Positions 2,215 to 19,672 of a stretch of DNA of 33,288 nucleotides are shown here, piece by piece. The notes beneath the pieces were generated by a model. It saw nothing but the letters and a program-made list of their open reading frames with translations. It was not told where the DNA came from and searched no databases. The DNA lies in assembly GCA_913062925.1 (NCBI GenBank), contig CAJXWJ010000041.1, forward strand, positions 1-33,288, written 5' to 3'. The DNA is from an uncultured Pseudorhodobacter sp. GTDB lineage: Bacteria; Pseudomonadota; Alphaproteobacteria; Rhodobacterales; Rhodobacteraceae. Within the stretch, counting starts at the first letter, position 1, and each line of letters begins with the position of its first letter. The translations under genes and the position numbers were made by a program.

Positions 2215-3285
2215 TTATGCCCTAGCCCGCCCTTGTTGCCGATATTGGTCCAGCACAACTGCACCGACGATAATCGCGCCTTTCACCATTTCTTGGTAAT
2301 AGGCATCCAGCTTTAGAAAAGTGAAGCCCGAGATAATCACGCCAAAGATCAGCGCGCCAATCACCGTGCCAAGGATCGAGCCGCGCCCGCCTTGCAGCGA
2401 CACGCCACCAATCACCGCCATAGCGATGGCGTCCAATTCATACATCACGCCCATATTGGCCTGCGCGGTCTGTCCCTTGGAGGAGACCACCACCGCCGCA
2501 AGGGAGGCAAGCGCCGAGGCGATCACATAGACCAGCACCTTATGGCGATCGACATTGATCCCCGACATGCGGGTGGCTTGTTCATTGGATCCAATGGCAT
2601 AGCTGTGCTTGCCATATTTTGTGTAGGTCATCAGCAGGTGAAACAACACCGCAAGCCCAACAAAGATGATCACCGGATTCATGCCGCGCCCAATGGCGTT
2701 ATAGCCTTCGGTCGGGAAGGAAATCGGATTGCCGTTCGACCACCAACGCGCAAAGCCGCGCGCCGAGACCATCATGCCCAAGGTGGCAATAAAGGGCGGG
2801 ATTTTTGTGTAAGCGATCAGTGCGCCATTGATCAGACCGGCCAGAACGCCCACCGTCATGCCGATCAAAACTGGCAAGATCACGGGCAAATCCATTGCCC
2901 AATCGCCAAAAATCGCCTTTGGATTGGGATTTCCATTCACCAAAGCGGTCTGGGCAAAGCTCATCGCGACCATGGCCGAGGCCCCAACAATCGAGCCCGA
3001 CGACAGATCAATGCCGCCGGTAATAATCACCTGCGTCACGCCAAGGGCAATGATGCCCACGGTGGCCACCTGCAAAATGATGATCGACAAGCGAGCGGTG
3101 TTGAACATGCCTTCAACATTCTCGCGGGTGTTGAACAGAAAACTATCGCCCACCATGATGCGCCCCAGCAGCTCAAAAGCCACCACGATAATCACAAAGG
3201 CAATAAAAACGTTCAATTCCGGCGGGCGTGCTTTTTTGCTTGGATCGTATTTTAGGCCGCCTAGGCCATGCGTCGGTGTGGACAC
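2215..3285 (-). CDS. Sugar ABC transporter permease, FrcC/RbsC type
   Basis: A 356-residue inner-membrane permease of the BPD_transp_2 (ribose/xylose/inositol) family. It has many hydrophobic segments and the family's GGIDLSSGSIVGASAM stretch after TM3-4, plus the AVIGGVSLQGGRGSILGT loop near the C-terminus that contacts the ATPase. The N-terminus is a cytoplasmic Lys/Arg-rich tail before the first membrane span at about residue 27. A strong AGGAGG-like site lies just upstream of the start (reverse strand of 3293-3298). The gene follows the binding protein after about 100 bases that hold two stem-loops, and is nearly fused to the ATPase gene. A homodimeric permease is expected. Confidence 0.92.
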   Translation of the reverse strand: MSTPTHGLGGLKYDPSKKARPPELNVFIAFVIIVVAFELLGRIMVGDSFLFNTRENVEGMFNTARLSIIILQVATVGIIALGVTQVIITGGIDLSSGSIVGASAMVAMSFAQTALVNGNPNPKAIFGDWAMDLPVILPVLIGMTVGVLAGLINGALIAYTKIPPFIATLGMMVSARGFARWWSNGNPISFPTEGYNAIGRGMNPVIIFVGLAVLFHLLMTYTKYGKHSYAIGSNEQATRMSGINVDRHKVLVYVIASALASLAAVVVSSKGQTAQANMGVMYELDAIAMAVIGGVSLQGGRGSILGTVIGALIFGVIISGFTFLKLDAYYQEMVKGAIIVGAVVLDQYRQQGRARA

Positions 3286-3384: not shown

Positions 3385-4326
3385 TTAGTTCTTGTTCAGG
3401 AAGTCTGCGACATTGGCAGAGGTTACCAGCTGGAACGGAATATAGACCTTTTGCTCGACAGCTTCGCCCTTGCTGAGTTTAATCGCCGCCTCAAGCGCAC
3501 CCGCACCTTGGCCTGCGGCGTCTTGGAACACGGTCACATCCTGATCGCCGGCCTGCATCGCAACCAAAGCGTCTTGGGTGGCGTCAACACCGCCGACCAC
3601 AACGGATGCCATGTCGATGCCCGCAGCTTTCATCGCCTGAATGGCACCAATCGCCATCTCGTCGTTGTTGGCGATCACACCATCAAAGGGCGCACCCGAA
3701 GACAGCCAGTTGGTCATCAGCGACTGAGCTTGGTCGCGCGACCAATTGGCGGTCTGCTCGTCGAGGATTGTCAGCTCGACCGCGCATTTACCAGCGGCCA
3801 TCACATCATGGATGTCAGCGGTGCGCTGCACGGCAGCTTGGTTGGAAAGCTCGCCCATCATGACGTAAACGCTGGCCTTGTCCTTGCCAGCTTCTTTCAG
3901 CTGACGGCATACTTCGATGGTCTCCAAAGTGCCCGAGTCAACTTCGTTCGAGGCTACAAAAGCCTGATTGTCTGGCAAAGTATCGACGTTGATCGGCTGA
4001 CGGTTGACATAGACCAGCGGGATATTGGCCGCCGCTGCCGCATCGGTCATCGCTTGGGTGGCCGAGGTGTCAACCGGATTGACGATAATCGCCGAGACGC
4101 CCGAGGCGATAAAATTGTTGATCTGGTCCAATTGCTTGGCCACATCATTCTTGGCGTCTTCGATCTGTAGCTCGACGCCAAGCTCTTTGCCTTTGGCATC
4201 CATGCCATTGCGCAAAACGGTCAGAAAGTTGTCGTCAAACAGCGCCATCGAAACACCGATGCCACCCGCCATAGCGCTTGTGCTCATCAAAGCTGCAAAG
4301 CCTGCGATCATAAGGGTCTTTTTCAT
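3385..4326 (-). CDS. Periplasmic sugar-binding protein, ribose/inositol/rhizopine (MocB-like) type
   Basis: A 313-residue class-B (Peripla_BP_4) substrate-binding protein. I chose the ATG at 4326 (MKKTLMIAGFA) because GGAGGAGAGAG precedes it; a GTG five codons upstream is less likely. A Sec signal peptide ends at about STSAMA-GG. The mature start GIGVSMALFDDNFLTVLRNG, the FIASGVSAIIVNPVD segment and the GGVDATQDAL segment resemble, from memory, rhizobial inositol and rhizopine binding proteins, so a cyclitol ligand is a reasonable guess. It would deliver its ligand to the permease and ATPase encoded downstream. The upstream neighbour is an IolI/MocC-like isomerase, which supports the cyclitol idea. 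Ribose, xylose or a related sugar remains possible. Confidence 0.88.
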   Translation of the reverse strand: MKKTLMIAGFAALMSTSAMAGGIGVSMALFDDNFLTVLRNGMDAKGKELGVELQIEDAKNDVAKQLDQINNFIASGVSAIIVNPVDTSATQAMTDAAAAANIPLVYVNRQPINVDTLPDNQAFVASNEVDSGTLETIEVCRQLKEAGKDKASVYVMMGELSNQAAVQRTADIHDVMAAGKCAVELTILDEQTANWSRDQAQSLMTNWLSSGAPFDGVIANNDEMAIGAIQAMKAAGIDMASVVVGGVDATQDALVAMQAGDQDVTVFQDAAGQGAGALEAAIKLSKGEAVEQKVYIPFQLVTSANVADFLNKN

Positions 4327-4349
4327 GTCTCTCTCCTCCACAATTCGGT

Positions 4350-4395
4350 GTCCGGCACACCTTTTCTCCCCGCCGGACCGCCCGCTTAGGGCGGT
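4350..4395 (-). terminator. Paired stem-loops between isomerase and binding-protein genes
   Basis: Two adjoining inverted repeats fill the 73-base gap. GTCCGGC (4350-4356) pairs with GCCGGAC (4372-4378), and ACCGCCC (4377-4383) pairs with GGGCGGT (4389-4395) around GCTTA. The two stems share bases 4377-4378, so they may be alternatives. Neither has a U-tract on the transcribed strand. They could tune expression between the enzyme and transporter genes. Confidence 0.45.
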
Positions 4396-4399
4396 ATTC

Positions 4400-5209
4400 C
4401 TACGCGCTGGCGATACCTGCGCGGATGAATTCCATTGAAGCCGCCAAAGCTGGTTTGGGGGCGGTTAGGTCGTGAACCTGTTTTGAAAACGGCTCGTAGC
4501 TGATCGGGCCGCGATATCCTGCCGCCACCAGCGCGCGGATCTGCGCCACATTGCCCAGCAAATCATCACCATCGACCAAGACGCGGTGTTCGTCGCGCAT
4601 GTCACTAAGGTAGATCGGATCTTTGACGCCAGAGACATGCACGATTCCGGTCATCTCGGCATAGATCGGACCGCCGCCTGCCAAAGCGTGGTGAAAGGTG
4701 TCATGCACCATAAAATAGGTGCCTTGCCCGCCAACCGCATCGATAGCTTGGGCCAGAACATCCTTATAACGAAGACTGCACACCTCAAACCCCAAGGGTT
4801 CCACCATGGCCTTCAAGCCGTGATGACGCAGCATCGGCAGCAGCTCGCGCAGCGCGGTCTGCGTCACCGCCAAACTGTCGGCGCGCGCGGTTGCCACATT
4901 GTCGTTGCGCGGGATCAGGCTGATCGCCTCGGCCCCTGCGGCGACAGCGATTTTCATCAGCGCTTCGGCCTCGGCGCGTTTGGCCTCGGACCAATCGTTG
5001 AACATCTTGACCTCGGCCAAAGCCAGAAAACGCAGCCCCAAAGCCTTTACCGCAGCGCCCACATCCGCCGGATCATCGCCGCCAAACAGCGGACCTTGCA
5101 GATCATTGCGAAATTCAACCCCAACACAGCCCAGATCCTTGGCCAGCGCCAAGAAAGACTGCCAACCCAAGCTGGGGGTGGTCATATGGTTCAGCGCAAA
5201 AGGCAGCAT
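4400..5209 (-). CDS. Sugar phosphate isomerase/epimerase-like TIM-barrel protein, IolI/MocC-like
   Basis: A 269-residue AP-endonuclease-2-like TIM barrel, the family of IolE, IolI, MocC and hydroxypyruvate isomerase. The four expected metal ligands can be placed: Glu137 (MVEPLG), Asp170 (MVHDTFHH), His191 (GIVHVSG) and Glu239 (SYEPF). The LALAEVKMFND segment near residue 62 resembles the LALNALVFFNN region of 2-keto-myo-inositol isomerase IolI as I remember it. It should be a soluble metal-dependent isomerase or epimerase acting on a keto-cyclitol or ketose. It is the first gene of the minus-strand operon after the regulator, 73 bases before the binding protein. IolI is the best guess, but IolE/MocC-type dehydratases share the fold. 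Confidence 0.8.
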   Translation of the reverse strand: MLPFALNHMTTPSLGWQSFLALAKDLGCVGVEFRNDLQGPLFGGDDPADVGAAVKALGLRFLALAEVKMFNDWSEAKRAEAEALMKIAVAAGAEAISLIPRNDNVATARADSLAVTQTALRELLPMLRHHGLKAMVEPLGFEVCSLRYKDVLAQAIDAVGGQGTYFMVHDTFHHALAGGGPIYAEMTGIVHVSGVKDPIYLSDMRDEHRVLVDGDDLLGNVAQIRALVAAGYRGPISYEPFSKQVHDLTAPKPALAASMEFIRAGIASA

Positions 5210-5310
5210 TTAGATCAAACTCCAGAGAATCGCCGGAACGCCCGACAATATGGAATTGTTATTCTATTATTCAGGTCGAGCAATTATAAAGTTCTGCGAC
5301 GAAATTCAGT

Positions 5311-5329
5311 CTTGATGGTTTTTGACGAA
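5311..5329. promoter_or_regulatory. Candidate operator, copy 1 of a 19-base element
   Basis: The element CTTGATGGTTTTTGACGAA matches 16 of 19 bases of the copy at 6402-6420, in the same orientation. It lies upstream of the isomerase gene that starts at 5209 and just beyond the lacI stop. Its presence in two promoter regions of the locus makes it a candidate binding site for the LacI-type regulator. LacI operators are usually palindromic and this one is only weakly so. Confidence 0.45.
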
Positions 5330-5347
5330 TTTTGGCATTCTGAGAGA

Positions 5348-6373
5348 TTAAAGCGACTCTGCCACATGCAAATCGGGGGGAAGGAAAAACTGTGCCGTGC
5401 CTTGCACTTGCCCTTCTTGCCGCAGGCTTACCATTTTGGCTACGACAAAGCGGCAGAGTTTTTCCAGCGGTGTGTCAATCACCATAGCCACAAGACCCTC
5501 TGCCAGCCCCGCGCGGCTGTCTGGGGTCAGCGCCGAGACGATGATCGGCACACGCTTGACCAGAGGCGTTTCGCGCATCGCCGCCATCGCCCCCTCCATG
5601 CCGCCGCCCGCCACATAAATGCCGCGCAGCTTGGGTTGCCGTGCCACAAGCCCCAAAGTTGCATCATAGGTCAATTGGCGCGTCTCAAGATTAACCAAAG
5701 GATCAAGCACCGTCAGATGCGGCGCGCATTCGCGCAGATAACCACGAAAACCGGTTTCCCGCAGATCATGACCGTGCCAGCGGTGGCCGCCGACAAAGAT
5801 TGCCATCACCCCCGGCTCGGGTGAGAGCGTCGCCATCAACCAGCCCGCGGTGCGACCAACCTTCAGATTGTTTAGCCCAACATAGCCCGCGCGCGCGCCT
5901 TGCGCGAAATCGGACAGCAGAGAAAACACCGGCAGGCCCTGCGCGCGCAGATCCTCCACCGCCGCCGAAACCTCGGGGTGGTTGACCGAGGTAGCGGCCA
6001 AAACATCGCAGCGCCCCGCCATGGCGCGCAGATGTCCGGCCATCTCGCTTGGCGCTTGGCTTGCCGAAAACTCCAGCACCAACTCGGCCTGCACTCCAAC
6101 CGCTTGCGTGACGGCAAGGGCAATTTCTTCGGCAAAAGCCTTATAGAAATCCTGCCCCTGCTTGTGCAAAAGCACTCCGATCCGACACCTTGGCAGATCT
6201 GCGGCCTGCGGCAACAACCGTCTTGCGGCTGGATGGCCAATGCGTTGCGCGGCCTCGGCCACACGCACCCGCGTGTCGTCGCGCACCGCCTCTCGGCCAT
6301 TCAGAACCCGATCCACCGTCGCCACTGAAACCCCCGCCGCCGCGGCCAAATCCACCATGCCCATGCGCTTCAT
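5348..6373 (-). CDS. LacI-family transcriptional regulator
   Basis: A 341-residue regulator with an N-terminal LacI helix-turn-helix (VDLAAAAGVSVATVDRVLNG, residues about 7-26) and a periplasmic-binding-protein-like ligand domain from about residue 57 (CRIGVLLHKQGQDFYKAF). The VDRVLN recognition helix is typical of the subgroup whose ligand domain resembles CUT2 sugar-binding proteins, which fits the adjacent CUT2 transporter. The ATG at 6373 has a GAGAGGG site upstream; a TTG two codons earlier is possible. It stands between the isomerase-transporter operon and the divergent oxygenase operon, so it probably controls both in response to the transported substrate or its product. The shared 19-base element supports this. 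Confidence 0.9.
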   Translation of the reverse strand: MKRMGMVDLAAAAGVSVATVDRVLNGREAVRDDTRVRVAEAAQRIGHPAARRLLPQAADLPRCRIGVLLHKQGQDFYKAFAEEIALAVTQAVGVQAELVLEFSASQAPSEMAGHLRAMAGRCDVLAATSVNHPEVSAAVEDLRAQGLPVFSLLSDFAQGARAGYVGLNNLKVGRTAGWLMATLSPEPGVMAIFVGGHRWHGHDLRETGFRGYLRECAPHLTVLDPLVNLETRQLTYDATLGLVARQPKLRGIYVAGGGMEGAMAAMRETPLVKRVPIIVSALTPDSRAGLAEGLVAMVIDTPLEKLCRFVVAKMVSLRQEGQVQGTAQFFLPPDLHVAESL

Positions 6374-6401
6374 CGTCAAACCCTCTCAGCTTTTGCCGAA
6401 G

Positions 6402-6420
6402 CATGATGATATTTGACGAA
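6402..6420. promoter_or_regulatory. Candidate operator, copy 2 of the 19-base element
   Basis: CATGATGATATTTGACGAA, 16 of 19 identical to the copy at 5311-5329, lies in the 127-base divergent region between the LacI gene and the MocD-like gene. An inverted TCGTCAAA also overlaps the lacI start (6373-6380), forming a spaced inverted repeat with TTTGACGA at 6412-6419. A repressor bound here could act on both divergent promoters. Confidence 0.45.
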
Positions 6421-6500
6421 AAACTACAAGCTCCGCGTTGCCGGATTTTGGAATTTACGTTCTATTGTCTTTAGACTTTTGACAGCAGCGAGAACACCAA

Positions 6501-7577
6501 ATGGCGAAACGCGATTACAATTTGCTTGGGCCGGATGGCGTGCGGGCGGTGGAAACAGGGCTTGCGGCGGCCGAGTGGTATCACAGCGAGGTGCCGCGCA
6601 AAGTGATGAAGCAGCTGATGCAACGCTCTGACGGACCAGCCCTGCGCGACACGGCTTTGCTTTACGCCCTTATGATCAGCTTTGCGACAGCGGGCGTTTT
6701 GCTTTGGCCCAGCGCCTGGTCACTGCCATTTTGGCTGGCTTATGGCGTGCTCTACGGCTCGGCCTCGGACAGCCGCTGGCATGAAACCTCGCATGGCACG
6801 GCATTCAAAACCGCTTGGATGAACGCAGTGGTCTATCAGATTGCTTGCTTTATGATTGTGCGCAATCCGGTCAGTTGGCGCTGGAGCCACGCGCGCCACC
6901 ATACCGACACCTATATCGTCGGGCGCGACCCCGAGGTGGCGATCATGCGCCCACCTGTGCTGTTCAAACTGATCGGCAACTTCTTTGGGTTGTTTGATGC
7001 CTATGCGGGCTGGTCGCGGATGCTGCTGAACGCGGCGGGGCGGCTCGGCGCCGAAGAAGCAAGCTATATTCCGGCAAGCGAGGCTGCGAAAGTCATCTTT
7101 GTGGCGCGTATCTGGACGCTGATCTATGCCGCCACCCTTGTGCTTGCGCTGATCTTGCACAGCATTTTACCCTTTATGGTGATCGGCCTGCCACGACTTT
7201 ATGGCGCTTGGCATCATGTGATGACCGGGCTTTTGCAGCATGGCGGTTTGGCCGATAACGTCACCGATCATCGGCTGAATTCGCGCACCGTCTATATGAA
7301 CCCGATCTCGCGATTTATCTATTGGAACATGAACTACCATATCGAACACCACATGTTTCCGATGGTGCCCTATCACGCGCTGCCCGCACTGCATGCGCTG
7401 ATCAAACACGATCTGCCCGCGCCAAGTCGCTCGATCTTTGCGGCTTATGCCGAGATGTGGCCCGCGCTGCGGCGGCAATTGCACAATGAAGAGTATTTTC
7501 TGCGCCGCGATCTGCCCACCAGTGCCATGCCTTACCGTGAAGATTTCCACAAAAGCGCCCTGGGCGCTGCCGAATAG
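6501..7577 (+). CDS. Fatty-acid-desaturase-superfamily di-iron membrane oxygenase, MocD-like
   Basis: A 358-residue integral membrane di-iron enzyme. The three His boxes are clear: HETSH (94-98), HARHH (130-134) and HIEHH (within YHIEHHMFP, 280-284). There are also accessory His in WHHVMTGLLQHGG near 238-247. Hydrophobic pairs lie at about 50-90 and 205-230. The superfamily covers desaturases, alkane hydroxylases and MocD, which with ferredoxin MocE is linked to demethylation of the rhizopine 3-O-methyl-scyllo-inosamine. The gene begins the plus-strand operon divergent from lacI and is followed 9 bases later by a MocE-family ferredoxin, so a MocD-like oxygenase is the best reading. Its substrate could still be a lipid or another methylated compound. 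Confidence 0.87.
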   Translation: MAKRDYNLLGPDGVRAVETGLAAAEWYHSEVPRKVMKQLMQRSDGPALRDTALLYALMISFATAGVLLWPSAWSLPFWLAYGVLYGSASDSRWHETSHGTAFKTAWMNAVVYQIACFMIVRNPVSWRWSHARHHTDTYIVGRDPEVAIMRPPVLFKLIGNFFGLFDAYAGWSRMLLNAAGRLGAEEASYIPASEAAKVIFVARIWTLIYAATLVLALILHSILPFMVIGLPRLYGAWHHVMTGLLQHGGLADNVTDHRLNSRTVYMNPISRFIYWNMNYHIEHHMFPMVPYHALPALHALIKHDLPAPSRSIFAAYAEMWPALRRQLHNEEYFLRRDLPTSAMPYREDFHKSALGAAE

Positions 7578-7586
7578 GAGCCAAAA

Positions 7587-7901
7587 ATGACCAACTGGAT
7601 TGACGCCTGCGCCACTGATGACATCGACCAAGAAGACCTGATCCGCTTTGATCATGCGGGGGCTACCTATGCGATCTATCACGCCCCCGAGGGCGATTTC
7701 TATTGCACATCAGGGCTTTGCACCCATGAAAACGTGCATCTTGCCGATGGGCTGGTGATGGAGCATTTGATCGAATGCCCCAAACACAACGGCCAGTTCG
7801 ACTATCGCACGGGCGAGGCGAAACGCTCACCGGTCTGCATCAACCTGAAAACCTTCCCCGTCAAGGTTGCAGGCGGCCGCGTCTTGATTCAGGTGGCATA
7901 A
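7587..7901 (+). CDS. MocE-family Rieske [2Fe-2S] ferredoxin
   Basis: A 104-residue stand-alone Rieske ferredoxin, a normal length. The cluster ligands are C45-T-H47 and C64-P-K-H67. It carries electrons in the cytoplasm to an oxygenase. The context is the MocD-like di-iron oxygenase directly upstream, to which it is almost certainly the electron donor. A GGAG site precedes the start and the stop overlaps the next ATG by one base (TAATG), so translation is coupled. No ferredoxin reductase (MocF-type) is encoded in the window, so the electron source must lie elsewhere. Confidence 0.93.
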   Translation: MTNWIDACATDDIDQEDLIRFDHAGATYAIYHAPEGDFYCTSGLCTHENVHLADGLVMEHLIECPKHNGQFDYRTGEAKRSPVCINLKTFPVKVAGGRVLIQVA

Positions 7902-8701
7902 TGGCACAGCGTTTGACAGTAAAAGATCTGCTTGACCAACGCGGCAAGCATCAGTTTGCCATGCTGCGGGTCGAAACTTTGGCCGAAGCAGAGGCGGCAG
8001 AGGCCGCGGGCATCGAACTGCTCTCGGTACCAGCAGCGATGATCTTTGACCGCCAGTTCCGCGACGCGGCCCCCACGGCATTTGCGTTTCCAGGTGATAA
8101 TTTTTACGAAATTGGCGACACTGCGGATTTCTTGAAGTGGGCCTTTCCGCTTTTCAAGCATGGCGCAGATGGCGTTTACTGCTCGGGCAGTTTGCAAACC
8201 GTGCGAGCTTTGGCTGATCACGGGATTCCGGTCTGCGGACATGTCGGTCTGATCCCCTCCAAGGCCACCTGGACGGGCGGCTTCAAAGCGGTCGGCAAAA
8301 CGCTCGACAGTGCAAAGTTGGTCTACCAGCAGTGCAAAGCGCTTGCCGATGCCGGCGCTTTTGCGGTTGAAATTGAGGTGGTGCCGTCAGAGATCACCGC
8401 TGCCATTGCAGAAAAGACCGGACTTTTCCTTATTTCGATGGGGGCGGGCTCGGCTGGGCATGCGCAATATCTGTTTTCAGACGATGTTTTAGGCCAAAAC
8501 TTGGGCCATGTTCCGCGTCATGCCAAACGCTACGCAGATTTCGCCGCGGAATATGCGCGCTTGCAACAGATGCGCATCGCTGCAATGGCAGATTTTGCCC
8601 GCGAGGTGCATGACGGGGCCTATCCTACGCCAGCCCATCTGGTTTTTTGCGAGGCCAACGTGGTGGCAGATTTTCGCGACTGGTTAGAGCGCGAGGCTTA
8701 G
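7901..8701 (+). CDS. Ketopantoate hydroxymethyltransferase (PanB)-like paralogue
   Basis: A 266-residue PEP-mutase/PanB-type TIM barrel. The PanB signature is evident: PVCGHVGLIPSKATWTGGFKAVGKT (from residue 110, in two parts), then IEVVP with Glu159 at the position of the PanB catalytic Glu181, MGAG, and LGHVPRHAKRYADF. But where PanB has metal ligands in GDSLG and KIEGG, this protein has VPAAM (43-47) and YCSGS (93-97), and ADLPF is replaced by FPGDN. So it is unlikely to be the housekeeping pantothenate enzyme. It is translationally coupled to the Rieske gene. PanB handles a hydroxymethyl group from methylene-tetrahydrofolate, so a one-carbon or aldol/retro-aldol role in the neighbouring pathway is possible (inference). 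Its stop overlaps the convergent yaeQ gene by 4 bases. Confidence 0.8.
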   Translation: MAQRLTVKDLLDQRGKHQFAMLRVETLAEAEAAEAAGIELLSVPAAMIFDRQFRDAAPTAFAFPGDNFYEIGDTADFLKWAFPLFKHGADGVYCSGSLQTVRALADHGIPVCGHVGLIPSKATWTGGFKAVGKTLDSAKLVYQQCKALADAGAFAVEIEVVPSEITAAIAEKTGLFLISMGAGSAGHAQYLFSDDVLGQNLGHVPRHAKRYADFAAEYARLQQMRIAAMADFAREVHDGAYPTPAHLVFCEANVVADFRDWLEREA

Positions 8702-9243
8702 GCCGCCGTCTTCCAGCTTTGCAGGGTCACATAGACGATGCTCTCACCCAAACTGACCATCACTTCGCCGTCCTGAATATTCACCTGAAGTCGCATCGCG
8801 CGACTGGCCAGTTTCGCCAAAGCGCTGGTGTCTTGCTCGGAAAAACTTGCCACCTGAAGATTGTCAAATCGAGTGGTGCTGTTTTTGACCTTATCCCACC
8901 AGATTTCCGCCGTCCGGCCGCCATAGGGGTAAATAAAGACCTTGCTGGCCTTATTGCAGGATTGCCGCATCACCTTCTCGCTTGGCAGACCCAAGGCCAC
9001 CCAGACATCCAACTCGCCGCTTAGGCTTTTTTGCCAAATATCCGGCTCGTCATCGGTTGACAGCCCCTTGGTCATTTCCAGATTTTCATGGGCATTAAGC
9101 GCGAATGCGACAAGGCGCAGCATGAGCCGCTCGTCGGTCTCGGAGGGATGCTTGGCAACGGTCAGCTTATGGGTCTCGTAATAGTGACGATCCATGTCAG
9201 AGACCGAAAGCTCGACTTTATAAATAGTGGCATTTTGCGCCAT
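8698..9243 (-). CDS. yaeQ: YaeQ family protein
   Basis: A 181-residue member of the YaeQ family, which has a PD-(D/E)XK nuclease-like fold and an uncertain cellular role. Recognisable segments are the start MAQNATIYKVELSVSDMDRHYY, the ETDERLMLRLVAFALN helix, SLSGELDVWVALG and the C-terminal YVTLQSWK. I placed the start at ATG 9243 because the family begins here; the open frame extends 35 codons further upstream but that part looks non-coding. The gene is single, convergent with the PanB-like gene, and its promoter should lie in 9244-9469 shared with the divergent VIT gene. No link to the catabolic locus is apparent. Confidence 0.92.
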   Translation of the reverse strand: MAQNATIYKVELSVSDMDRHYYETHKLTVAKHPSETDERLMLRLVAFALNAHENLEMTKGLSTDDEPDIWQKSLSGELDVWVALGLPSEKVMRQSCNKASKVFIYPYGGRTAEIWWDKVKNSTTRFDNLQVASFSEQDTSALAKLASRAMRLQVNIQDGEVMVSLGESIVYVTLQSWKTAA

Positions 9244-9469
9244 GATCTGTCCAAACCTGCAAAGATTGGCATGCATACAGGGTCTGATAGGCTTGTGAAA
9301 GCCCCTAAACCGGCGTGAGCGGTTCACGCGGCATAGGCCTAGAGCCAAAAACTGCGGGCTGGGCGGGGCTTGCCTTCGCGCGCAGAAGTGCCTAGCCCAG
9401 TGGAATTGCCCTATTTTGGCGCAAGCACGCGGTTTTCAGGCGGCCGCCTTTCGACCACAGGAGTTTCCG

Positions 9470-10177
9470 ATGTCTCAGCCGTTTCAATCAGCGCATGAGG
9501 AAGTGCATTTCGTCAATCGAACCGGCTGGCTGCGTGCGGCGGTTTTGGGCGCGAATGATGGCATCGTCTCGGTGTCTTCTTTGATTGTGGGCGTTGCGGC
9601 GGCAGACCCAAGCCCTGCGGCGATTTTGGTGGCTGGGGCTGCGGGGCTGGCTGCGGGGGCTATGTCGATGGCGGCGGGCGAATACGTCTCGGTCAGCTCG
9701 CAATCTGACACCGAACGCGCCGATATTGCGCGCGAAAAACAAGCGCTGATCGATACGCCAGCCGCAGAAGAGGCCGAACTGGCCTCGATCTATGAAAAGC
9801 GCGGCTTGTCGACGGCGACAGCGGCGCTGGTTGCGCGGGAGCTGACGGAAAAAGACGCTTTGGGCGCCCATGTGCGCGATGAATTGGGCCTGTCCGAGGT
9901 CCATGCCGCCAACCCGATGCAGGCCGCGCTTGCTTCGGGGCTGACCTTCACCATCGCCGCGGCTCTGCCGCTTGCCGCCGCCGTCTTGGCGCCAAGCAAT
10001 GCCATTATCCCAACGGTGGTCGTTTCAACTCTGATCTGCCTTGCAGGTCTGGGCGCGCTTGGGGCACATGTTGGGGGCGCGCCAAAATTGCCCGCGACAG
10101 CGCGAGTTTTGTTCTGGGGTGCAGCGGCCATGGCGATTACGGCCGGTGTCGGTTGGGTGTTTGGCATCAGCGTCTGA
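9470..10177 (+). CDS. VIT/CCC1-family iron or manganese transporter
   Basis: A 235-residue membrane protein of the VIT1/CCC1 (vacuolar iron transporter-like) family. It shows the family hallmark GANDGIVSVSSLIVGVAAA near residues 27-41, then GAMSMAAGEYVSVSSQSDTE, a charged cytosolic helix region (about 80-140) that in relatives binds metal, and three C-terminal hydrophobic spans. It probably moves Fe(II) or Mn(II) out of the cytoplasm, or acts in detoxification. ATG 9470 has a CAGGAG site 7 bases upstream; an upstream in-frame ATG at 9416 lacks one. It is a single gene, divergent from yaeQ, and ends 22 bases before the convergent CheW-like gene. The metal specificity is not readable here. Confidence 0.93.
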   Translation: MSQPFQSAHEEVHFVNRTGWLRAAVLGANDGIVSVSSLIVGVAAADPSPAAILVAGAAGLAAGAMSMAAGEYVSVSSQSDTERADIAREKQALIDTPAAEEAELASIYEKRGLSTATAALVARELTEKDALGAHVRDELGLSEVHAANPMQAALASGLTFTIAAALPLAAAVLAPSNAIIPTVVVSTLICLAGLGALGAHVGGAPKLPATARVLFWGAAAMAITAGVGWVFGISV

Positions 10178-10199: not shown

Positions 10200-11738
10200 C
10201 TAGGACAAAATGCCCTGATGATCTGCCGCAGCTGCGGGTATTTGGTGGATGTTTCTCTCCTTTTTGACCGCAGGCTGCACGGGCCAAAGCGCCACAAACC
10301 GAGCGGAGGTGTGGCTCTGCCGCATCGCCAGTCGCGTCGCGGGGCCGCCTGAAAACTCTGGAACATCGTCAATGAAGTGAACACGCTCGATACCAACGAT
10401 GTCTTCAACAAGCAGGCCGATCCGCTCGCCCGCCTTTCTGACCACAACAATCCCCGGACGTTGGCCTGGCTGCGGGTCACGCTCGCCTGCCAGCCAAGAC
10501 ATGCAGAAAACCGCCAAAAGCGAGTCGCGATAAAACAGACTGTCAATAAAGCCATCGTATCGGGGCTTGGTCTTACAAAAGGCAGCTGGCAGCTGCAAAA
10601 TTTCCACCACATCCTCAATCGCTAAGGCCCGCAGACCACCGGCGCGCACAAAGATTGCCGTTCCCGGAACCCCTTTTGCCGCGCCGCTTGTGCTGCTGTC
10701 TGCGCGATTGCCTTCGTCTTTGCGATGGGCGATTCTCGCCAAAGCCTGCGCCTCCGGGTCGGCGGTAAGCCTATCGATATCAAGAACATAGCACGGAAGA
10801 CCCTTTGCATCAAACACCACCCCCTGAAACAGATCGGGGCGGTCACAGACCGTTGGCGGAATAGCGGTGATCTGACTGCGCTGAAGGTGCAGAATATCGG
10901 TGATACGGTCGGCGCGCAGGGTCAGGCCACGGCCCGGCTCCAGCTTAAGGACGATGCCGCCAGAGTGCGCGGGCCGCGCGCCGCCTTTGACAAATCCGGT
11001 AAAGATCTGCGGGTTCATTAAGGCCATCTTGAGCCCATGCCGCTCGATCGCGCCCTCGCAAGAGCCTTGAGCCAAAACGCTGCTGTCGACGGCGGTCTCG
11101 GCCAAGGTCGCCTCGATGTTGCGCACCGAAACGCAGTAGCGCCACCCGCCGATTTCGCAGAGCAGAAACTGGCTCGAGCGATCCAAATGGCGCGACCGCG
11201 TCGGCTGTTCGGCCGTATGCGGCACCTCGGCGGCGGTGAGCAGCGCGCTGGCGTCAAGCAGGCTGACAACCTCCAGGCCGACCAAGGCAACACGCGGCAG
11301 CACAAGCCGTGCCATCTCGGACCCGGCCGGCGTCATCTCTTGAACCAGCACTTCACTGGACTGGACGATGCGCCGGACCGCTTGTGCGCGCAAACCAACG
11401 ACGCGGCTTTCCCAACGCAAAATCGCAATGATATTGCACCCCTCGCGTGAGGGTGGCAGGTTAAGGGCGGCCGAAAGATCCAGCACGGGTATGACCTGCC
11501 CGCGCAGGGCAACGCAGCCCATGGCGAAGGGGCCGCCAGCGGGCAAAGGTTGCAGGCCGGGCGGATGCACCATAACCTCGCGCAAATTCGCAACCGGAAT
11601 GCCAAGGGTTACGCCGCCCATCGCGATCAAAGCCGTTGCGGGATAGACGGTTGGCGCATGCGCAGTCGCGGTGACCGCAGGCGCCCGGCCCGCGACCTGC
11701 ATCGCTGTCAGCCCAAGCGCGTCGCTGTCTCCCTGCAT
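10200..11738 (-). CDS. Protein with three tandem CheW-like domains
   Basis: A 512-residue soluble protein built of three CheW-like adaptor modules, at about residues 33-170, 188-335 and 355-500. Module 1 shows the CheW pattern IPVANLREVM...FAMGCVALRGQVIPVLDLSAAL. Module 3 ends with a similar GIVVVRKAGERIGLLVEDIVGIERV pattern. Module 2 is more diverged (CVSVRNIEATL...GLTLRADRITDIL). There is no kinase, receiver or membrane segment. Ordinary CheW has one such domain and couples receptors to CheA; a triple version could scaffold larger arrays. Its ATG follows the stop of the PAS-receptor gene by one base (TGAGATG), so the two are co-translated and probably partners. No cheA, cheY or cheR is present nearby. 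Confidence 0.85.
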   Translation of the reverse strand: MQGDSDALGLTAMQVAGRAPAVTATAHAPTVYPATALIAMGGVTLGIPVANLREVMVHPPGLQPLPAGGPFAMGCVALRGQVIPVLDLSAALNLPPSREGCNIIAILRWESRVVGLRAQAVRRIVQSSEVLVQEMTPAGSEMARLVLPRVALVGLEVVSLLDASALLTAAEVPHTAEQPTRSRHLDRSSQFLLCEIGGWRYCVSVRNIEATLAETAVDSSVLAQGSCEGAIERHGLKMALMNPQIFTGFVKGGARPAHSGGIVLKLEPGRGLTLRADRITDILHLQRSQITAIPPTVCDRPDLFQGVVFDAKGLPCYVLDIDRLTADPEAQALARIAHRKDEGNRADSSTSGAAKGVPGTAIFVRAGGLRALAIEDVVEILQLPAAFCKTKPRYDGFIDSLFYRDSLLAVFCMSWLAGERDPQPGQRPGIVVVRKAGERIGLLVEDIVGIERVHFIDDVPEFSGGPATRLAMRQSHTSARFVALWPVQPAVKKERNIHQIPAAAADHQGILS

Positions 11739-11739
11739 C

Positions 11740-14508
11740 TCAGGCCGCCTGCGTAACCGAAGCCAGTTCGGAAATCAGGCCAACCACCTCGCGCGAGACC
11801 GTTTCCTGCTCGGCCGCAGACTCTGAGATGCGATCAATCGAGGTTGCGGTTTCACCAACACTTTGCACGATGCGTTCAAAGGCCGTCCGCGCCGCGTAAG
11901 AGCGTTCCGTGCCCAAGCCCACGCGCGCCGTGCTTTCCTCGATCAACTTGCCGATTTCAAGGGCTGCGGTCGAACTGCGCTCGGCCAGTTTGCGCACCTC
12001 ATCCGCAACGACGGAAAAGCCGACACCGTATTCGCCAGCCCGCGCCGCCTCGATCGCGGCATTGAAGGCCAAGAGGTTGGTCTGATTTGCGATTTCTGTG
12101 ATAACTTTGATAATGTTTGATATTTCACTGGATGAGGCCGAGATCAGCTCGATCGAACCGATAGCGTTATTCAGTGCCTCAAACCCCTGCGAGGCATTGG
12201 TACGGGTTTCGCCAGAGTGACTGAGGCTTTGTGCCGTCGAGGCATTGATCTGATGGATCGAATTTGAAAGCCGATCGACCACCTTGGACATCAGCGCCGC
12301 CTTATTGCGAATCGTCCCCTCTAATGCGACCTGGGCAGTGATGTCATGGGCGTATTTGATCACGCCGACGGGCTTGCCGTGAAAGTCGAGCAAAGGCGAA
12401 TAGCTGGCCTGAATCCACAGATCACAATCGAATTTGCCAATGCGGTGAAAGCGGCCATGTTGCGCTTCGCCCTTGCGAAGACCGACCCAGAAATCGCGAT
12501 AGGCCTGCGATTTGATGTGATCCGCGGTGCAAAAGATCGCATGATGTTGGCCGATGATCTCGCGCAGGGAATATCCTGTCAGGCGCAGGAAATTCTCGTT
12601 TGCTGACTTCACCTTACCTTCAAGATCAAACTCGATAATGGCCTGACTGCGATCAATTGCGTCGAATTTGCTTTCGAATTGCGCCGTGGCCAGACGTTCA
12701 GCGGTGACATCGGTGGCAAATTTAATGATCTTGGTCGGGCGACCGTCAAGATCGAAGATCGGGTTATAGGTGGCACGAATGAAAACCTCGCGGCCATCCT
12801 GGGTCACGCGGCAATATTCGGCTGCGTCATATTCTCCGCGCGAGAGTTTTTCCCAAAAATTTCGATAGGCTTCCGAGGCGGCATGGTCCTTGGGGCAAAA
12901 AATGCGGTGATGCTGGCCCTGCACCTGATCCGACGTATACCCCATCAAGGCAAGGAAATTGGCATTTGCGGTCAAGACATTGCCCTGCAAGTCAAATTCG
13001 ACGATGGCGAGCGAGCGGTCGCAGGCCCGCAGCGTGCCTTCAAAATCAGCGTTGCGCAGCCGGTCTGTCGTAACATCCTGACCGTGAAGCAGCACGCGGC
13101 GCACATTGCCATCCAGATCGTAAATCGGGCTGTAGGTTCCGTTCACAAAGAAACTTTGGCCGCCACGGCCATAGCGGCGGAATTCACCCGATTGCGGCTC
13201 CCCCTTTTTTAGGCGCTGCCAATGCAGGCGAAAGTCATTAGATTCAGCAGCGTCAACATGCCAAAACATCGCTTCTGCCTTGCCGCGCAGATCTTCGATT
13301 TGGTAGCCGGTTTGGGTCAAAAACAGGTCATTGGCCGAAAGGATCGAGCCGCGTTCATCCATTTCCAGCATCATTTCCGTGCGCGACAGCACCGAAACGC
13401 GGCTCTGAAGATCCGACATCGTCAAGCGCTGCTCGGTGACATCCATCGCAACTTTGACCACGCGCGCAATTTCGCCATCCGGACCCGCAATCGGGTTATA
13501 GCTGGCCTGCAACCAAACCGGACGCCCTTCTTTGGCAAAGCGTTTGTACTCACCCATGTCGAAGGCACCGCCGGATAGCTTTTGCCAAAACTGCTTATAA
13601 GCTGCGCTGCGGACATAGTCTGGGTCGCAGAAGATGCGGTGGTGCTGGCCCATCAACTCTTCCTTGCTGTAGCCCATCAGTGCAAGAAACTTCTGATTTG
13701 CTTCGATAATATTACCGTCAAGATCGAATTCGATCATCGCCATAGCCTTGCCAAAGGCATTCAGCCGGCCGGCATTTTCGGCCGAGATGGTCTTGGCCGC
13801 CGTCACATCCATTGCAAATTTGGCCACGCGGGCCACGCGGCCATCGGGGCCAAATATCGGATTATAGCTGGCCCTAATCCAGACCGACGCCCCGGCAGAG
13901 GTGATCCGCTCGAACTCGCCATCCACAATCTCGCCACCAGCAAGCCTGCGCCACATCTCGGCATAATCGCTGGAGGCCACATAGGCCTTGCGACAAAAGA
14001 GGCTGTGGTGGCGGCCTTTAAGCCCGACCTCTTCATATCCCATCAGGGTAAGAAAATTATCATTGACCCGCAGGATATTGCCCTCGGTGTCAAATTCGAT
14101 CACCGCCTGAACCCGCTCGATCGCTTGCATCTTGCTGACAAGGTCAGCATCTTTGGGCACCAGACGGCCATTCAGCACCAGCGTTGGCACGTCCTCTTGC
14201 GCATCACGCAAGAAACCGTGGAACGTGACGACCGCATCTTCCTCGGCAAGATGGACATGAAATTCAACCGGATCGCTGGCCTGCACCGCCGCGCCGAGGC
14301 AGTCGAGCAGATAGTCACCCTCGCGCACAAGCTCTGGCAGTTTGCAGCCCACAACGGGGACATTGCCACCGCCCACCAGCCGATCAGCCGCCGCATTGGC
14401 CATCAGCACCATGCCGTCGCTTGCACGCACACGCATCACCATGCTGGTCAACAGCATTAGCCGGTTGGCCGTTTCAATATCCGTGGTCTCTAGGGTCTTT
14501 AGGGTCAT
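11740..14508 (-). CDS. Soluble methyl-accepting chemotaxis protein with tandem PAS repeats
   Basis: A 922-residue cytoplasmic chemoreceptor with no membrane segment. A degenerate PAS-like N-terminus (1-120) is followed by five PAS-PAC repeats of about 120 residues (about 125-240, 243-362, 365-483, 486-605, 608-726) and a C-terminal MCP signalling domain. That domain contains the conserved hairpin tip [20 protein letters not shown] (about 805-824) and [13 protein letters not shown]. Four repeats carry an HHxxFC motif (HHSLFC, HHRIFC twice, HHAIFC); the third (GKAEAMFW) lacks it. I start at ATG 14508, preceded by GGAG; a GTG four codons earlier is possible. It is transcribed with the triple-CheW gene. 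It probably senses an internal signal such as redox state, a bound cofactor or a metabolite. The ligand is unknown. Confidence 0.93.
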
Positions 14509-14609
14509 CAGCAACTCCACTGCGCGCAGGTTCGGATAGCCTATCCCAAGAGAGCTGAATCGATGATTAACGCCGCAAAAATCTCTGCCCGCCCAGCAAA
14601 AGCATCGGT

Positions 14610-16863: not shown

Positions 16864-18711
16864 CTAGATCGGGGCCAAGACCCAGCCCATTGCGTCAAAG
16901 ATCGGGGCATAAAAAGGGATCAGCGCGCGCAAACGCGCCGGCGAGGTGGTGGCTTGCGGCTCCCAGGCCTTGCAGGCAAGGCCGAAAATGCGGGGGGCGA
17001 TCATCGCCTCGGCCTGAGCGTCTTGGGTGGTGAATTCACCCCAAAAACAACCCTGAACGCCCAAGATACGCGCGGCAATATCCTGACTTTCGGCTGGCAC
17101 AGGATCCCATAACAGCGTCTTGTCCAACGGCAAAATCCCCGCCCAAGTCGCGCCCCAATCCTCGGGATCAGAGCTATGAGCCAAATCGAAATAGGTGTGC
17201 GCAGCAGGGCACATCACCACATCATAGCCGGCATGGGCGGCGGCGAGACCTGCACCCTGCCCTGTCCAGCTGAACAAAATCGCACCATGACCAATGCCGC
17301 CATTCTTGCCCTTGGCGGCCTCTTCCCAAGCCGCTGCGCGAATGCCTTTGGCTGCCAGATGTGCCGCCAATCGCGCCATCATCCAGCCTTGAACATCGCC
17401 CCAAGTCTGCAAGTCCTCTTGCGCCATAAGCGCTTGAACCGCAGGGCTGCCCGACCAGACGCCAGACGGGGCCTCATCGCAGCCCAAATGCAGCAGCTGC
17501 ATCGGAAACAGGCTGGCGACCTCCTCGATAATGGCGGGCAAAACTTGCCATGTTTCAGGCATCGCGGGGTTCACCACATTATCAAGATAGCCCTGCACCG
17601 AGATCTCTTCGCCATTATCGCCTGGATCGCGCAGACCCGAAATCGCCTTGATCAGCGCATGCGAATGCGCCGGACTCTCAATCTCGGGCATGACTTCAAT
17701 ATGCAACGAGGCAGCATGGGCCAGCACGCGGGCGACATCGGCTCGGCTGTAGCTGCCGCCTGCCAAAATCCCGCCACCAAAAACCGCAGGCATCATCTGC
17801 CCCTCGCCGCGCCAAGCGGTTTTGCGGGCCAGTTCGGGGGCATAGTCCAACTCAAGCCGAAACGCCTCATCATCAGCGAAATGCCAGTGAAAACGGTTCA
17901 GCTTCAGCAGTGCCATCACATCCAAAAGACGCATGATGCTATCTAGGCTGAAAAAATGCCGAGCGCAGTCAAGATGTTGTCCGCGCCAGACAAAACGGGG
18001 CGTGTCGCTGATGATGCCACAGGGCAGCCGACCGCCACAAGTTTCGCGCAAACTTAGCAGGGTGATCGCCGCATAATGCGCGCCCGCAAGACTGCCTGCC
18101 ACAATCGAAATGCCAGTCGCGGTGATGCCAATACGATAGGCTTCCGGCGCCAAATCGGTGGTGATCTCTGGGCGCACCTCGAGCCCCTCAGCGGCGGTAA
18201 AGGCCGCAAGCCCTGCCCGCTGCGCAAGGGCTGCAACCCCTGCAAAGGCAGGATCAGGCCGCAGCGTGGCAAAGGCCAAGTTCCCACCCGTCGCCTGCCA
18301 GCTTTGCGGCGGCGGCAGCAGCGGCAAGACATCGGGCGGCAAGGCTTCGGGGGATGGCGCGCGGTCTTGCGCCGCCAAGCCCAGCCGCACCCCCAGCGCA
18401 AAACCCTCTGGCAAGGCATGAACGATTTTGCCCACCCGAAGATAGGCCCCCAGCGGCAGCCAAGCGCGGTTCTTTGGGCGATAGTCGGGCGACTCATAGG
18501 CCAGCACAAGCCGATGGCTCTGCCCCGCAGCGATATCGGGCAAAATCACCTCGCCATAGCCCGCAAGCCGGCGCTGCATCACCCCACCCGAGACGACGCG
18601 CGGTGCGGCCATCAGCGAAAAGCAAAACACAGGCGCAGTCAGCGCGGTATCACTGCCAATTTCGCAAATAATCTCTGCGCCCTCGATCCGGGCGGAAAAT
18701 CGAAGCATCAT
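16864..18711 (-). CDS. Family 20 glycoside hydrolase, beta-N-acetylhexosaminidase
   Basis: A 615-residue GH20 enzyme. The catalytic Asp-Glu pair is Asp412-Glu413 in HLGCDEAP. The barrel begins at about DTPRFVWRGQHLDCARHFF (236-254), with LNRFHWHFADDEAFRLE (271-287) and EVMPEIESPAHSHA (339-352). An N-terminal region of about 150 residues and a GH20b-like domain (about 145-235) precede it. There is no signal peptide, so it should act in the cytoplasm on imported oligosaccharides, releasing GlcNAc or GalNAc from non-reducing ends. Its ATG overlaps the gntR stop (ATGA), so regulator and hydrolase are co-expressed, divergent from the transporter operon. Substrates could be chitobiose, peptidoglycan fragments or glycan pieces. 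Confidence 0.93.
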   Translation of the reverse strand: MMLRFSARIEGAEIICEIGSDTALTAPVFCFSLMAAPRVVSGGVMQRRLAGYGEVILPDIAAGQSHRLVLAYESPDYRPKNRAWLPLGAYLRVGKIVHALPEGFALGVRLGLAAQDRAPSPEALPPDVLPLLPPPQSWQATGGNLAFATLRPDPAFAGVAALAQRAGLAAFTAAEGLEVRPEITTDLAPEAYRIGITATGISIVAGSLAGAHYAAITLLSLRETCGGRLPCGIISDTPRFVWRGQHLDCARHFFSLDSIMRLLDVMALLKLNRFHWHFADDEAFRLELDYAPELARKTAWRGEGQMMPAVFGGGILAGGSYSRADVARVLAHAASLHIEVMPEIESPAHSHALIKAISGLRDPGDNGEEISVQGYLDNVVNPAMPETWQVLPAIIEEVASLFPMQLLHLGCDEAPSGVWSGSPAVQALMAQEDLQTWGDVQGWMMARLAAHLAAKGIRAAAWEEAAKGKNGGIGHGAILFSWTGQGAGLAAAHAGYDVVMCPAAHTYFDLAHSSDPEDWGATWAGILPLDKTLLWDPVPAESQDIAARILGVQGCFWGEFTTQDAQAEAMIAPRIFGLACKAWEPQATTSPARLRALIPFYAPIFDAMGWVLAPI

Positions 18712-19469
18712 CCGGCATCCAATCGCAATTCTGCAATGAAATCATAGATATCCGAGCGATAAAGCCCACGGGTAAACTCGATTGGCCGCCCGTTTGGCAA
18801 ATAGGCTGTGCGGTCAATTCGCAGCACGGCCGCTCCTTCGGCCAGATTCATCCGCCGCGCATCTTCGCCCGTGGCATTGATCGCCGTAATCCGCTGCACC
18901 GCCCGTGTTGGGGCGACGCCACGGGTGCGCAGCACATCATAAAGCGAGACATCGACCAGATTAGGATCGGGCAAAATATCGCGCGGCAAAGACGATCGCT
19001 CCAGTGCCATCGGCACATCATCGGCAAAGCGCAAACGCTCGACTCGCGCCAACATCTCGGCTCCGGGCAGGCCCAGCGCCATCTGCTCGTCGGGCGTGGG
19101 CGAGAACATGCCACGCTGAAGAATACGGCTGGTCGAGGCCTTGCCACGCTGGCGCATATACTCGGTAAAGGACATCAGCGCCGATAAGGAATGCTCCATT
19201 TTCGACGGCGGTGAGCGCACAAAGCTGCCTGCACCGCGCCGCTGCTCTAACACGCCGTCTTCCACCAATTGCGCCACGGCTTTGCGGATCGTCACACGAC
19301 TTACCTCGGCCAACTCGGCCAGATCGCGTTCGGGCGGCAGTTGCGACTGACTGGCCAGTTGACCCGAGGTGATTGCCGCCAGCAGATGGCGGTACAATTG
19401 TTCATATCTGGGGCCTTGCCCGCTCTGCAACCAGGCCGCGGGGCGAAACAGTGCCAAATCATCCTGCAT
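18708..19469 (-). CDS. GntR-family (HutC/UTRA) transcriptional regulator of amino-sugar genes
   Basis: A 253-residue regulator with a GntR winged helix-turn-helix (about 20-86; LPPERDLAELAEVSRVTIRK is the core) and a UTRA effector domain (about 95-245, ending IEFTRGLYRSDIYDF). This is the NagR/DasR/YvoA-type architecture that senses phosphorylated amino sugars. Its location between hexosaminidase and the divergent transport/catabolism operon, and the repeated TTGGTAT motifs in the shared promoter region, suggest it represses both sides until an amino-sugar phosphate binds. The GGGGGCG site upstream of ATG 19469 supports the start. Confidence 0.93.
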   Translation of the reverse strand: MQDDLALFRPAAWLQSGQGPRYEQLYRHLLAAITSGQLASQSQLPPERDLAELAEVSRVTIRKAVAQLVEDGVLEQRRGAGSFVRSPPSKMEHSLSALMSFTEYMRQRGKASTSRILQRGMFSPTPDEQMALGLPGAEMLARVERLRFADDVPMALERSSLPRDILPDPNLVDVSLYDVLRTRGVAPTRAVQRITAINATGEDARRMNLAEGAAVLRIDRTAYLPNGRPIEFTRGLYRSDIYDFIAELRLDAG

Positions 19470-19481
19470 TTTCGCCCCCTA

Positions 19482-19507
19482 ATTGGTATTATTTTGACAT
19501 TACCAAT
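19482..19507. promoter_or_regulatory. Candidate GntR operator, inverted repeat
   Basis: A perfect inverted repeat of ATTGGTA (19482-19488) and TACCAAT (19501-19507) with a 12-base spacer, 12 bases upstream of the gntR start. The TTGGTATNAT core recurs at 19587 and 19620. It fits autoregulation by a HutC-type repressor, though the spacer is longer than in typical NagR/DasR sites. Confidence 0.5.
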
Positions 19508-19518
19508 ATCGCGTAATT

Positions 19519-19644: not shown

Positions 19645-19672
19645 TTCGCTGATTTCAGGAGGGCGTCACTGC

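Follow-up and report, generated by a model that had tools for sequence, protein, structure and literature searches.

A PanB-like protein without the PanB metal site in a conserved MocD-MocE cassette, a candidate system for O-methyl-inositol demethylation

Introduction

In a 33,288-nucleotide stretch of DNA from an uncultured Pseudorhodobacter sp. (contig CAJXWJ010000041.1 of assembly GCA_913062925.1; this whole stretch is termed the window), a gene resembling panB, which encodes ketopantoate hydroxymethyltransferase (EC 2.1.2.11), stands with genes for a MocD-like di-iron oxygenase, a MocE-type Rieske ferredoxin and a CUT2-type importer, and this raises the question of what a PanB-like protein does in such a cassette. 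Of the systems described so far, rhizopine catabolism comes nearest, with MocDEF acting as a demethylase. That pathway (mocABCDEFR, with MocR as the regulator) has been modelled as a ferredoxin oxygenase complex combined with the inositol pathway (Bahar et al., 1998), and in Sinorhizobium meliloti 1021 a LacI regulator, mocD, mocE and mocF (SMb20817-20820) are expressed as neighbours (PMC11387232). Carbohydrate demethylation by a different type of oxygenase is found in marine bacteria, in which a cytochrome P450 oxidatively demethylates 6-O-methyl-D-galactose and gives formaldehyde (PMC10033563). PanB itself is a class II aldolase that needs a metal and acts via an adduct of a 2-oxo acid and methylene-tetrahydrofolate (PMC4814558), and the O-methylated inositols ononitol and pinitol are naturally abundant cyclitols (PMC6668481). 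Among the literature matches listed (titles and abstract openings, with subscription journals mostly outside the coverage) none joined MocDE with a PanB-like enzyme, which is not proof of absence, and none described oxidative demethylation of ononitol or pinitol with a PanB-like step.

From the comparisons described here we infer the substrate, the demethylation, the folate acceptor and the operator function of an inducible cassette for the uptake of an O-methyl-inositol (a cyclitol of the ononitol/pinitol type) and the removal of its methyl group, a reading that as a whole has about an even chance of being correct. The cassette is real and its link to inositol is well supported, O-methyl-inositol demethylation is its likely role, and the possible function of the PanB-like protein is sharply constrained.

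Results

Conservation of the cassette

Genes in the window were called from open frames together with profile searches (Table 1), and all those named in the initial annotation were found, with correct coordinates. The importer, TIM-barrel and LacI genes are divergent from those for the oxygenase, the ferredoxin and the PanB-like protein. The start of the PanB-like gene is taken as the ATG at 7901, which overlaps the mocE stop and agrees with the relatives, the longest open frame beginning at 7775. A CUT2-type importer is indicated by Peripla_BP_4 (PF13407) and BPD_transp_2 (PF02653) domains, but the range first assigned to it was incomplete, as it continues to the left through the permease and the ATPase to position 1448.

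When GTDB genomes were scanned with the PanB-like protein, 271 relatives were confirmed, and all locus counts below, made under strict position and identity limits, refer to the best 80 of these, which by record title are 49 of Rhodobacterales type and 31 from Rhizobiales (individual loci carry L numbers, genomes G and contigs C). The MocD-type oxygenase gene stands beside the PanB-like gene in 77/80 loci (46/49 Rhodobacterales-type and 31/31 Rhizobiales) and MocE in 78/80 (47/49 and 31/31), which bears out the earlier proposal that these parts belong to one conserved cassette. The other members, with totals in Table 1, are the LacI regulator (44/49 and 31/31), the TIM-barrel protein (39/49 and 26/31), the binding protein (37/49 and 27/31) and the permease (37/49 and 24/31), and several of the missing genes are explained by contig ends. 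Because the order LacI, then MocD-MocE-(MocF)-PanB, recurs in both Rhodobacterales and Rhizobiales, the arrangement is not due to chance and is conserved across two orders. Nor are the PanB-like and oxygenase genes mostly separated from the importer among these 80 closest loci, of which 64 have the binding-protein orthologue. In Rhizobium sp. K102 an importer follows the PanB-like gene, without iol genes.

The distribution was also examined in larger samples. A PanB-like profile built from 40 sequences matched 25 of 387 alphaproteobacterial genomes at an E-value of 1e-50. Among 160 Rhodobacteraceae genomes, 35 hold the PanB-like gene (58 matches) and 39 hold MocE (TIGR02377, E 1e-25; 55 matches), the latter being found in 29 of the 35 holders versus 10 of the 125 non-holders (p 1e-17, ignoring shared ancestry). 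MocE lies within 5 kb of 37 of the 58 PanB-like matches, and the converse is true for 37 of the 55 MocE matches. Of 72,556 plasmid records, 280 match the PanB-like protein (the weaker matches may include ordinary panB genes) and 275 match MocD (247 at 60-80% identity), with the matches to either protein mostly in Rhizobium and Sinorhizobium.

Table 1. Cassette genes and putative operators in the window (locus counts are out of the 80 related loci).
Feature	Position	Strand	Evidence and conservation
ABC ATPase, single-domain, 254 aa	1448..2212	-	PF00005; orthologues similarly placed in related loci
ABC permease, BPD_transp_2	2215..3285	-	PF02653; expected place in 61/80 loci
Periplasmic sugar/cyclitol-binding protein	3385..4341	-	PF13407; in 64/80 loci
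Xylose-isomerase-like TIM-barrel protein, IolE/IolI-type by context	4400..5209	-	PF01261; in 65/80 loci
Putative LacI operator, upstream of TIM-barrel/importer operon	5251..5266	+	exact match to TGGAATTNNNNTTCTA
LacI-family regulator	5348..6379	-	PF00356 + PF13407; in 75/80 loci
Putative LacI operator, upstream of mocD	6449..6464	+	second exact match to TGGAATTNNNNTTCTA
MocD-like membrane di-iron oxygenase, fatty acid desaturase family (FA_desaturase)	6501..7577	+	PF00487
MocE-type Rieske ferredoxin	7587..7901	+	TIGR02377, 170.6 bits, cut-off 136.15
PanB-like enzyme without the PanB metal/2-oxo-acid site	7901..8701	+	PF02548, residues 77-243

The PanB-like protein

The PF02548 domain of the PanB-like protein scores 128.3 bits, and the protein falls short of the curated PanB models (TIGR00222, 96.7 bits against a cut-off of 207.55; NF001452, 116.4 against 272). 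An ordinary panB is located on another contig of the same genome, with 345.5 bits versus 124.5 for the PanB-like gene. The AlphaFold model, which is of high confidence apart from a poorly predicted loop at 119-127 (pLDDT 88.4, pTM 0.80), retrieved PanB chains at ranks 1-28 in Foldseek, followed by relatives of isocitrate lyase and PEP mutase; the modelled protein thus has the PanB fold.

The active site differs. Asp45, Ser46, Asp84, Lys112 and Glu114 of E. coli PanB, which we take to be the residues that bind the metal and the 2-oxo acid, were compared in 29 true PanBs, 40 close PanB-like proteins and 60 further relatives (the two PanB-like sets overlap slightly). All five are invariant in the 29 true PanBs, while the window protein has Ala, Ala, Gly, Tyr and Ser. 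In the 40 close relatives Asp45 is Pro or Ala, Ser46 is Ala, Ser, Glu, Val or Asp, Asp84 is Gly, Lys112 is Tyr and Glu114 is Ser, Ala or Pro, so that Asp45, Asp84, Lys112 and Glu114 are all replaced in 40/40. Lys112 and Glu114 occur in none of the 60 further relatives. Ten of these sequences have an Asp aligned with Asp45 and three have one aligned with Asp84, in a gappy region of the alignment. His136 and Glu181, in contrast, are retained in 40/40 and 60/60. Hence the window protein is like PanB in its fold and in the His136 and Glu181 positions, and unlike it in the loss of the metal/2-oxo-acid residues, in its catabolic-cassette context and in the FastTree tree, where the PanB-like sequences form a single long branch apart from the 12 true PanBs included.

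Since PanB requires a metal and the metal/2-oxo-acid site is erased, PanB chemistry is argued against, and by its residues the protein would not be a ketopantoate hydroxymethyltransferase. Capture of a one-carbon unit by the normal metal-dependent aldol reaction of PanB was ruled out by the active-site comparison; if the protein handles such a unit, it therefore does so by another route, and it is predicted to be a metal-independent hydroxymethyl/folate enzyme. In the annotations opened (S. meliloti pSymB, Rhizobium etli p42e, Marivivens and Rhizobium sp. K102) it is called 3-methyl-2-oxobutanoate hydroxymethyltransferase, as it is in all five of the 25 plasmid matches listed that have an annotated feature; the gene is thus misannotated as panB in relatives.

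Several relatives depart from the usual pattern. Tyr is found at the Lys112 position in relatives that have MocD or MocE close by, and L119 and L122-L126, with no MocE nearby, mostly have Met or His there and may form a family with another function; in the four MocE-free loci that were Pfam-scanned (L119, L125, L128 and L129) the neighbours showed no clear function. In two 1.4 Mb genomes a PanB-like and a MocD-like gene are side by side (L116, 8887-10654; L117, 8705-10473), with no importer, MocE or LacI called near the pair. In L147 (genome G541, contig C21) two PanB-like genes that lie within about 2.1 kb face each other, one in a window-type and the other in a hydroxylase-type cassette (see below), and the PanB-like gene of Rhodobacter kunshanensis (L015, 10001-10798) has a stop codon within the matched range.

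Link to inositol catabolism

The tie to inositol uptake and catabolism that had been suggested is supported by loci in which the importer, the oxygenase and the PanB-like gene form one run with iol genes. In the public annotation of Marivivens sp. LCG002 (L203) the run consists of LacI, desaturase, MocE, an alpha/beta hydrolase on the opposite strand, PanB-like, TIM barrel, binding protein, permease, ATPase, iolG, iolC, iolD and iolE. Three other Rhodobacteraceae loci are comparable: L133 has the same gene set with iolG-iolC-iolD-iolE-iolB, L132 has the cassette with iol genes and no MocE call (the MocE match of this genome is on another contig), and in L136 only the PanB-like, LacI, permease and ATPase genes of the cassette stand with iol genes. 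The iolD calls of these three agree with a profile search, and their remaining iol labels are by similarity to L118. The latter contains an importer, a dehydrogenase, a TIM barrel, MocE, a second TIM barrel, PanB-like, two dehydrogenases, PurU, iolC (PfkB + DUF2090), iolD and iolB, where one dehydrogenase exceeds the iolG equivalog cut-off (422.3 versus 355) and the iolB label is an interpretation of the sequence.

In addition, iolD was over its cut-off in all 40 cassette genomes tested from the 80 loci (23 Rhodobacterales-type and 17 Rhizobiales). In the Rhodobacteraceae sample it is present in 87/160 genomes (TIGR04377, E 1e-100), in 29/35 PanB-like holders versus 58/125 genomes without the PanB-like gene (p 1.1e-4, again ignoring shared ancestry), and it lies within 25 kb of 8 of the 58 PanB-like matches. 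In the genome of the window iolB-iolE-iolD-iolC are on contig C16, and the 20 kb examined around them gave no call for an importer orthologue.

The closest solved relative of the binding protein among PDB sequences is 4yo7 (176 bits, the runner-up having 128.2), which is presumably a myo-inositol complex. The top-scoring NCBIfam models of the binding protein are MglB and RbsB, and the MglB score (125.6 bits) is under that model's cut-off of 420. CUT2 ATPases are typically two-domain proteins of about 500 aa; the window ATPase aligns only with the first half of such models, and the Rhizobiales loci have an ATPase of two-domain size, about 512 aa. The TIM-barrel protein had no match in an NCBIfam search.

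The binding protein had been described as rhizopine/inositol-like. A rhizopine type does not hold, as it reaches only 37.6 bits with the rhizopine model NF052284 (cut-off 420), and LacI takes the place of MocR. Rhizopine itself is thus not supported and was rejected as the default substrate. Four genomes do have a binding protein of the rhizopine type, which scores over the cut-off in three of them. One of the four has no PanB-like gene, two have it at a distance of more than 100 kb and the fourth has it on a different contig; no MocD, MocE or PanB-like label was found in the stretches examined around that binding protein.

Oxygenases, electron supply and PurU

No relative of the MocD-like protein was found among PDB sequences at E 0.01. 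A ferredoxin reductase (PF07992 + PF14759, from a Pfam call on L068 alone) is present near the PanB-like gene in 31/31 Rhizobiales loci, preceding it by a median of 1.3 kb, and in 2 of the 49 other loci, and MocF ferredoxin reductase is absent from the operon of the window.

The PanB-like gene is not confined to one family of oxygenase. In L121 it stands with a Pfam-called oxygenase of the PF04116 (fatty-acid-hydroxylase) type, and oxygenases related to PF04116 by similarity are found in L145, L147, L148, L155, L159, L164, L165 and L167, usually also with MocE and, in L121, L147 and L159, with an additional MocD-type gene. By inspection, these hydroxylase-type loci fall in several separate places on the FastTree tree. 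As the PanB-like gene stays while the oxygenase family changes, its product probably acts on what the oxygenases share, which would be the one-carbon product or the ferredoxin.

PurU, the formyl-folate deformylase (ACT + formyl transferase domains, Pfam-called on L051 only), is encoded within 4 kb of the PanB-like gene and on the same strand in 12/80 loci (11/31 Rhizobiales and 1/49 others), and near it also in L118, L158 and L166. Where it is present, PurU points to a one-carbon product. The window's own genome encodes PurU on contig C8 (333.3 bits).

Regulation

Two exact matches to TGGAATTNNNNTTCTA are found in the window (Table 1). Allowing two mismatches there are 4 matches versus 1.29 expected, a number reached in 8 of 100 shuffles, and this is no independent test because the pattern was chosen after looking at the window. 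In the related loci a palindrome of GGAA-N6-TTC type, a pattern chosen by the analyst and with first-order Markov resampling as the control, occurs upstream of mocD in 21/77 loci (resampled mean 0.47), upstream of the TIM gene in 30/65 (resampled mean 0.64) and at both places in 15/65, the Rhizobiales contributing only 2/31 and 5/26 at the two places, respectively. These palindromes are predicted operators and support a single LacI regulon that would cover both operons, at least in Rhodobacterales.

Discussion

Proposed pathway

In the proposed mechanism the binding protein, permease and ATPase would import the cyclitol, and LacI, released by this compound, would derepress both divergent operons via the shared operator of GGAAT-N4-ATTC(T/C) type. 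The MocD-like oxygenase would then hydroxylate the methyl carbon to a hydroxymethyl ether, using electrons delivered via MocE and a ferredoxin reductase, which is adjacent in Rhizobiales and not in the window. The PanB-like protein would pass the hydroxymethyl or formaldehyde unit to tetrahydrofolate without the metal-dependent enolate chemistry of PanB, and PurU and other folate enzymes would clear the carbon as formate. The freed inositol, perhaps with the aid of the TIM-barrel protein, would enter the iol pathway encoded on the other contig.

A number of observations weigh against this mechanism. The iol enzyme genes seen beside the importer in L132, L133 and L203 are absent from the window, and PurU is not beside the PanB-like gene in 68/80 loci or in the window. 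No importer adjoins the LacI-MocD-MocE-reductase-PanB-like run in the two annotated records of S. meliloti pSymB and R. etli p42e, and some MocD homologs (31-36% identity) stand with a ferredoxin and have no PanB-like gene listed nearby. Within the Rhodobacteraceae sample, MocE is not within 5 kb of 21/58 PanB-like matches, nor the PanB-like gene within 5 kb of 18/55 MocE matches, and the co-occurrence p-values take no account of shared ancestry. As iolD is common in rhizobia, its presence in cassette genomes is weak evidence for that group, and 6 of the 35 Rhodobacteraceae holders lack it (G419, G452, G468, G469, G490 and G513). In three of these (G469, G513 and G490) MocD is with the PanB-like gene at L137, L138 and L139, where the orthologous TIM barrel and binding protein are missing; LacI is distant there (32%, 29% and none called, respectively), and an epimerase-like gene (an interpretation of the sequence, with no family call) is common to L138, L139, L142 and L143. 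Given these exceptions, namely the iolD-free sets, the importer-free rhizobial runs and the PanB-free MocD contexts, MocDE-PanB probably represents a module of general use for carbohydrates, with its inositol-linked version in the window.

Alternative explanations

The most far-reaching proposal is that members of the PanB-like family are folate enzymes of a so far unrecognised kind, which would need no metal and would load the newly formed hydroxymethyl group of an oxygenase product, or formaldehyde as it arises, onto tetrahydrofolate. They would serve as a general adaptor for bacterial carbohydrate O-demethylation, used in turn with desaturase-type and hydroxylase-type di-iron oxygenases. 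This proposal is tentative, possible rather than probable. The same substrate and oxygenase can be combined with a PanB-like protein that has no role with folate and is instead either a lyase that accelerates hydroxymethyl ether breakdown or a partner of the oxygenase or ferredoxin that has no catalytic activity, with formaldehyde cleared by general pathways. The erased metal/2-oxo-acid residues, the scarcity of adjoining PurU and the way in which the PanB-like protein keeps to MocE while the oxygenase varies would all fit this, whereas the universal His136 and Glu181 suggest that catalysis is retained and PurU, where found, indicates folate; on balance it is doubtful, though to be taken seriously. 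At the other extreme, it is scarcely credible that the gene is an ordinary second panB, which would use metal-dependent aldol chemistry to make ketopantoate or to join formaldehyde to a different 2-oxo acid: the fold and the five plasmid annotations agree with this, but the scores are below the PanB equivalog cut-offs, four residues found in every true PanB are replaced in every close relative (two of them also in all 60 further ones), and a true panB is elsewhere in the genome.

The substrate and the reaction can also be questioned. An O-methyl or other alkoxy sugar in place of an inositol, with the iol link of some relatives representing a switch of substrate, would be in keeping with MglB and RbsB as the best models of the binding protein and with the MocD-PanB sets L137-L139, L142 and L143, which have other importers or the epimerase-like neighbour, three of them in genomes without iolD. 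These sets, however, lack the window's TIM-barrel and binding-protein orthologues, the loci that carry these orthologues are the ones inside iol operons, and every window-type genome tested has iolD, so that a sugar substrate is unlikely. It is very unlikely that the carbon hydroxylated by the oxygenase is one of the ring or chain, with no demethylation, and that the PanB-like protein is a lyase acting on the hydroxylated product. The oxygenase family does include hydroxylases, the GntB arginine hydroxylase model matches the MocD-like protein weakly, and in L206 a MocD homolog occurs together with a 5-guanidino-2-oxopentanoate decarboxylase, but such hydroxylase-like contexts have no listed PanB-like gene, and PurU near the PanB-like gene fits a one-carbon product.

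Relation to known systems

O-methyl-inositol demethylation by the cassette would be a variant on the known rhizopine/inositol theme, with possibly a new enzyme at its center. Rhizopine catabolism has in common with it the MocD-like oxygenase and MocE ferredoxin, and in Rhizobiales cassettes the MocF-like reductase, whereas the window differs in having LacI and not MocR, another binding protein and the extra PanB-like enzyme. Compared with the iol pathway with a CUT2 importer, the importer, TIM-barrel and LacI orthologues are the same ones that occur inside iol operons in some relatives, but the window lacks the iol enzymes and has the oxygenase, ferredoxin and PanB-like protein in addition. 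The 6-O-methyl-D-galactose system likewise removes a carbohydrate methyl group with an oxygenase, as proposed for the window, and differs in using a P450 rather than a membrane di-iron oxygenase, and the summary of that work names no PanB-like enzyme (PMC10033563). The cassette is thus a testable candidate for O-methyl-inositol demethylation in rhizobia and Rhodobacterales and, if the proposal is correct, would represent a new way of handling the toxic formaldehyde from demethylation.

Other features of the window

Convergent to the importer on the plus strand are a phytanoyl-CoA dioxygenase (PhyH) fragment truncated by the window edge (3-608) and a short-chain dehydrogenase gene (617-1429; NF004847, 386.9 bits, cut-off 240). 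Both were considered as parts of the cassette and excluded, PhyH occurring in 0/80 related loci and a short-chain dehydrogenase (40-43% identity) past the ATPase in 8/80. After the cassette (8698-10177) come genes of the YaeQ and VIT (metal transporter) families, with no cassette link seen. On the minus strand at 10200-14520 a gene for a CheW-domain protein (512 aa) directly follows one for a PAS-repeat chemotaxis receptor (926 aa). At 16864-25008 a CUT1-type importer, made up of a permease, an SBP_bac_1 binding protein and a MalK-like ATPase, and a Gfo/Idh/MocA dehydrogenase are encoded near a GH20 family hydrolase gene, a cluster whose composition suggests amino-sugar uptake.

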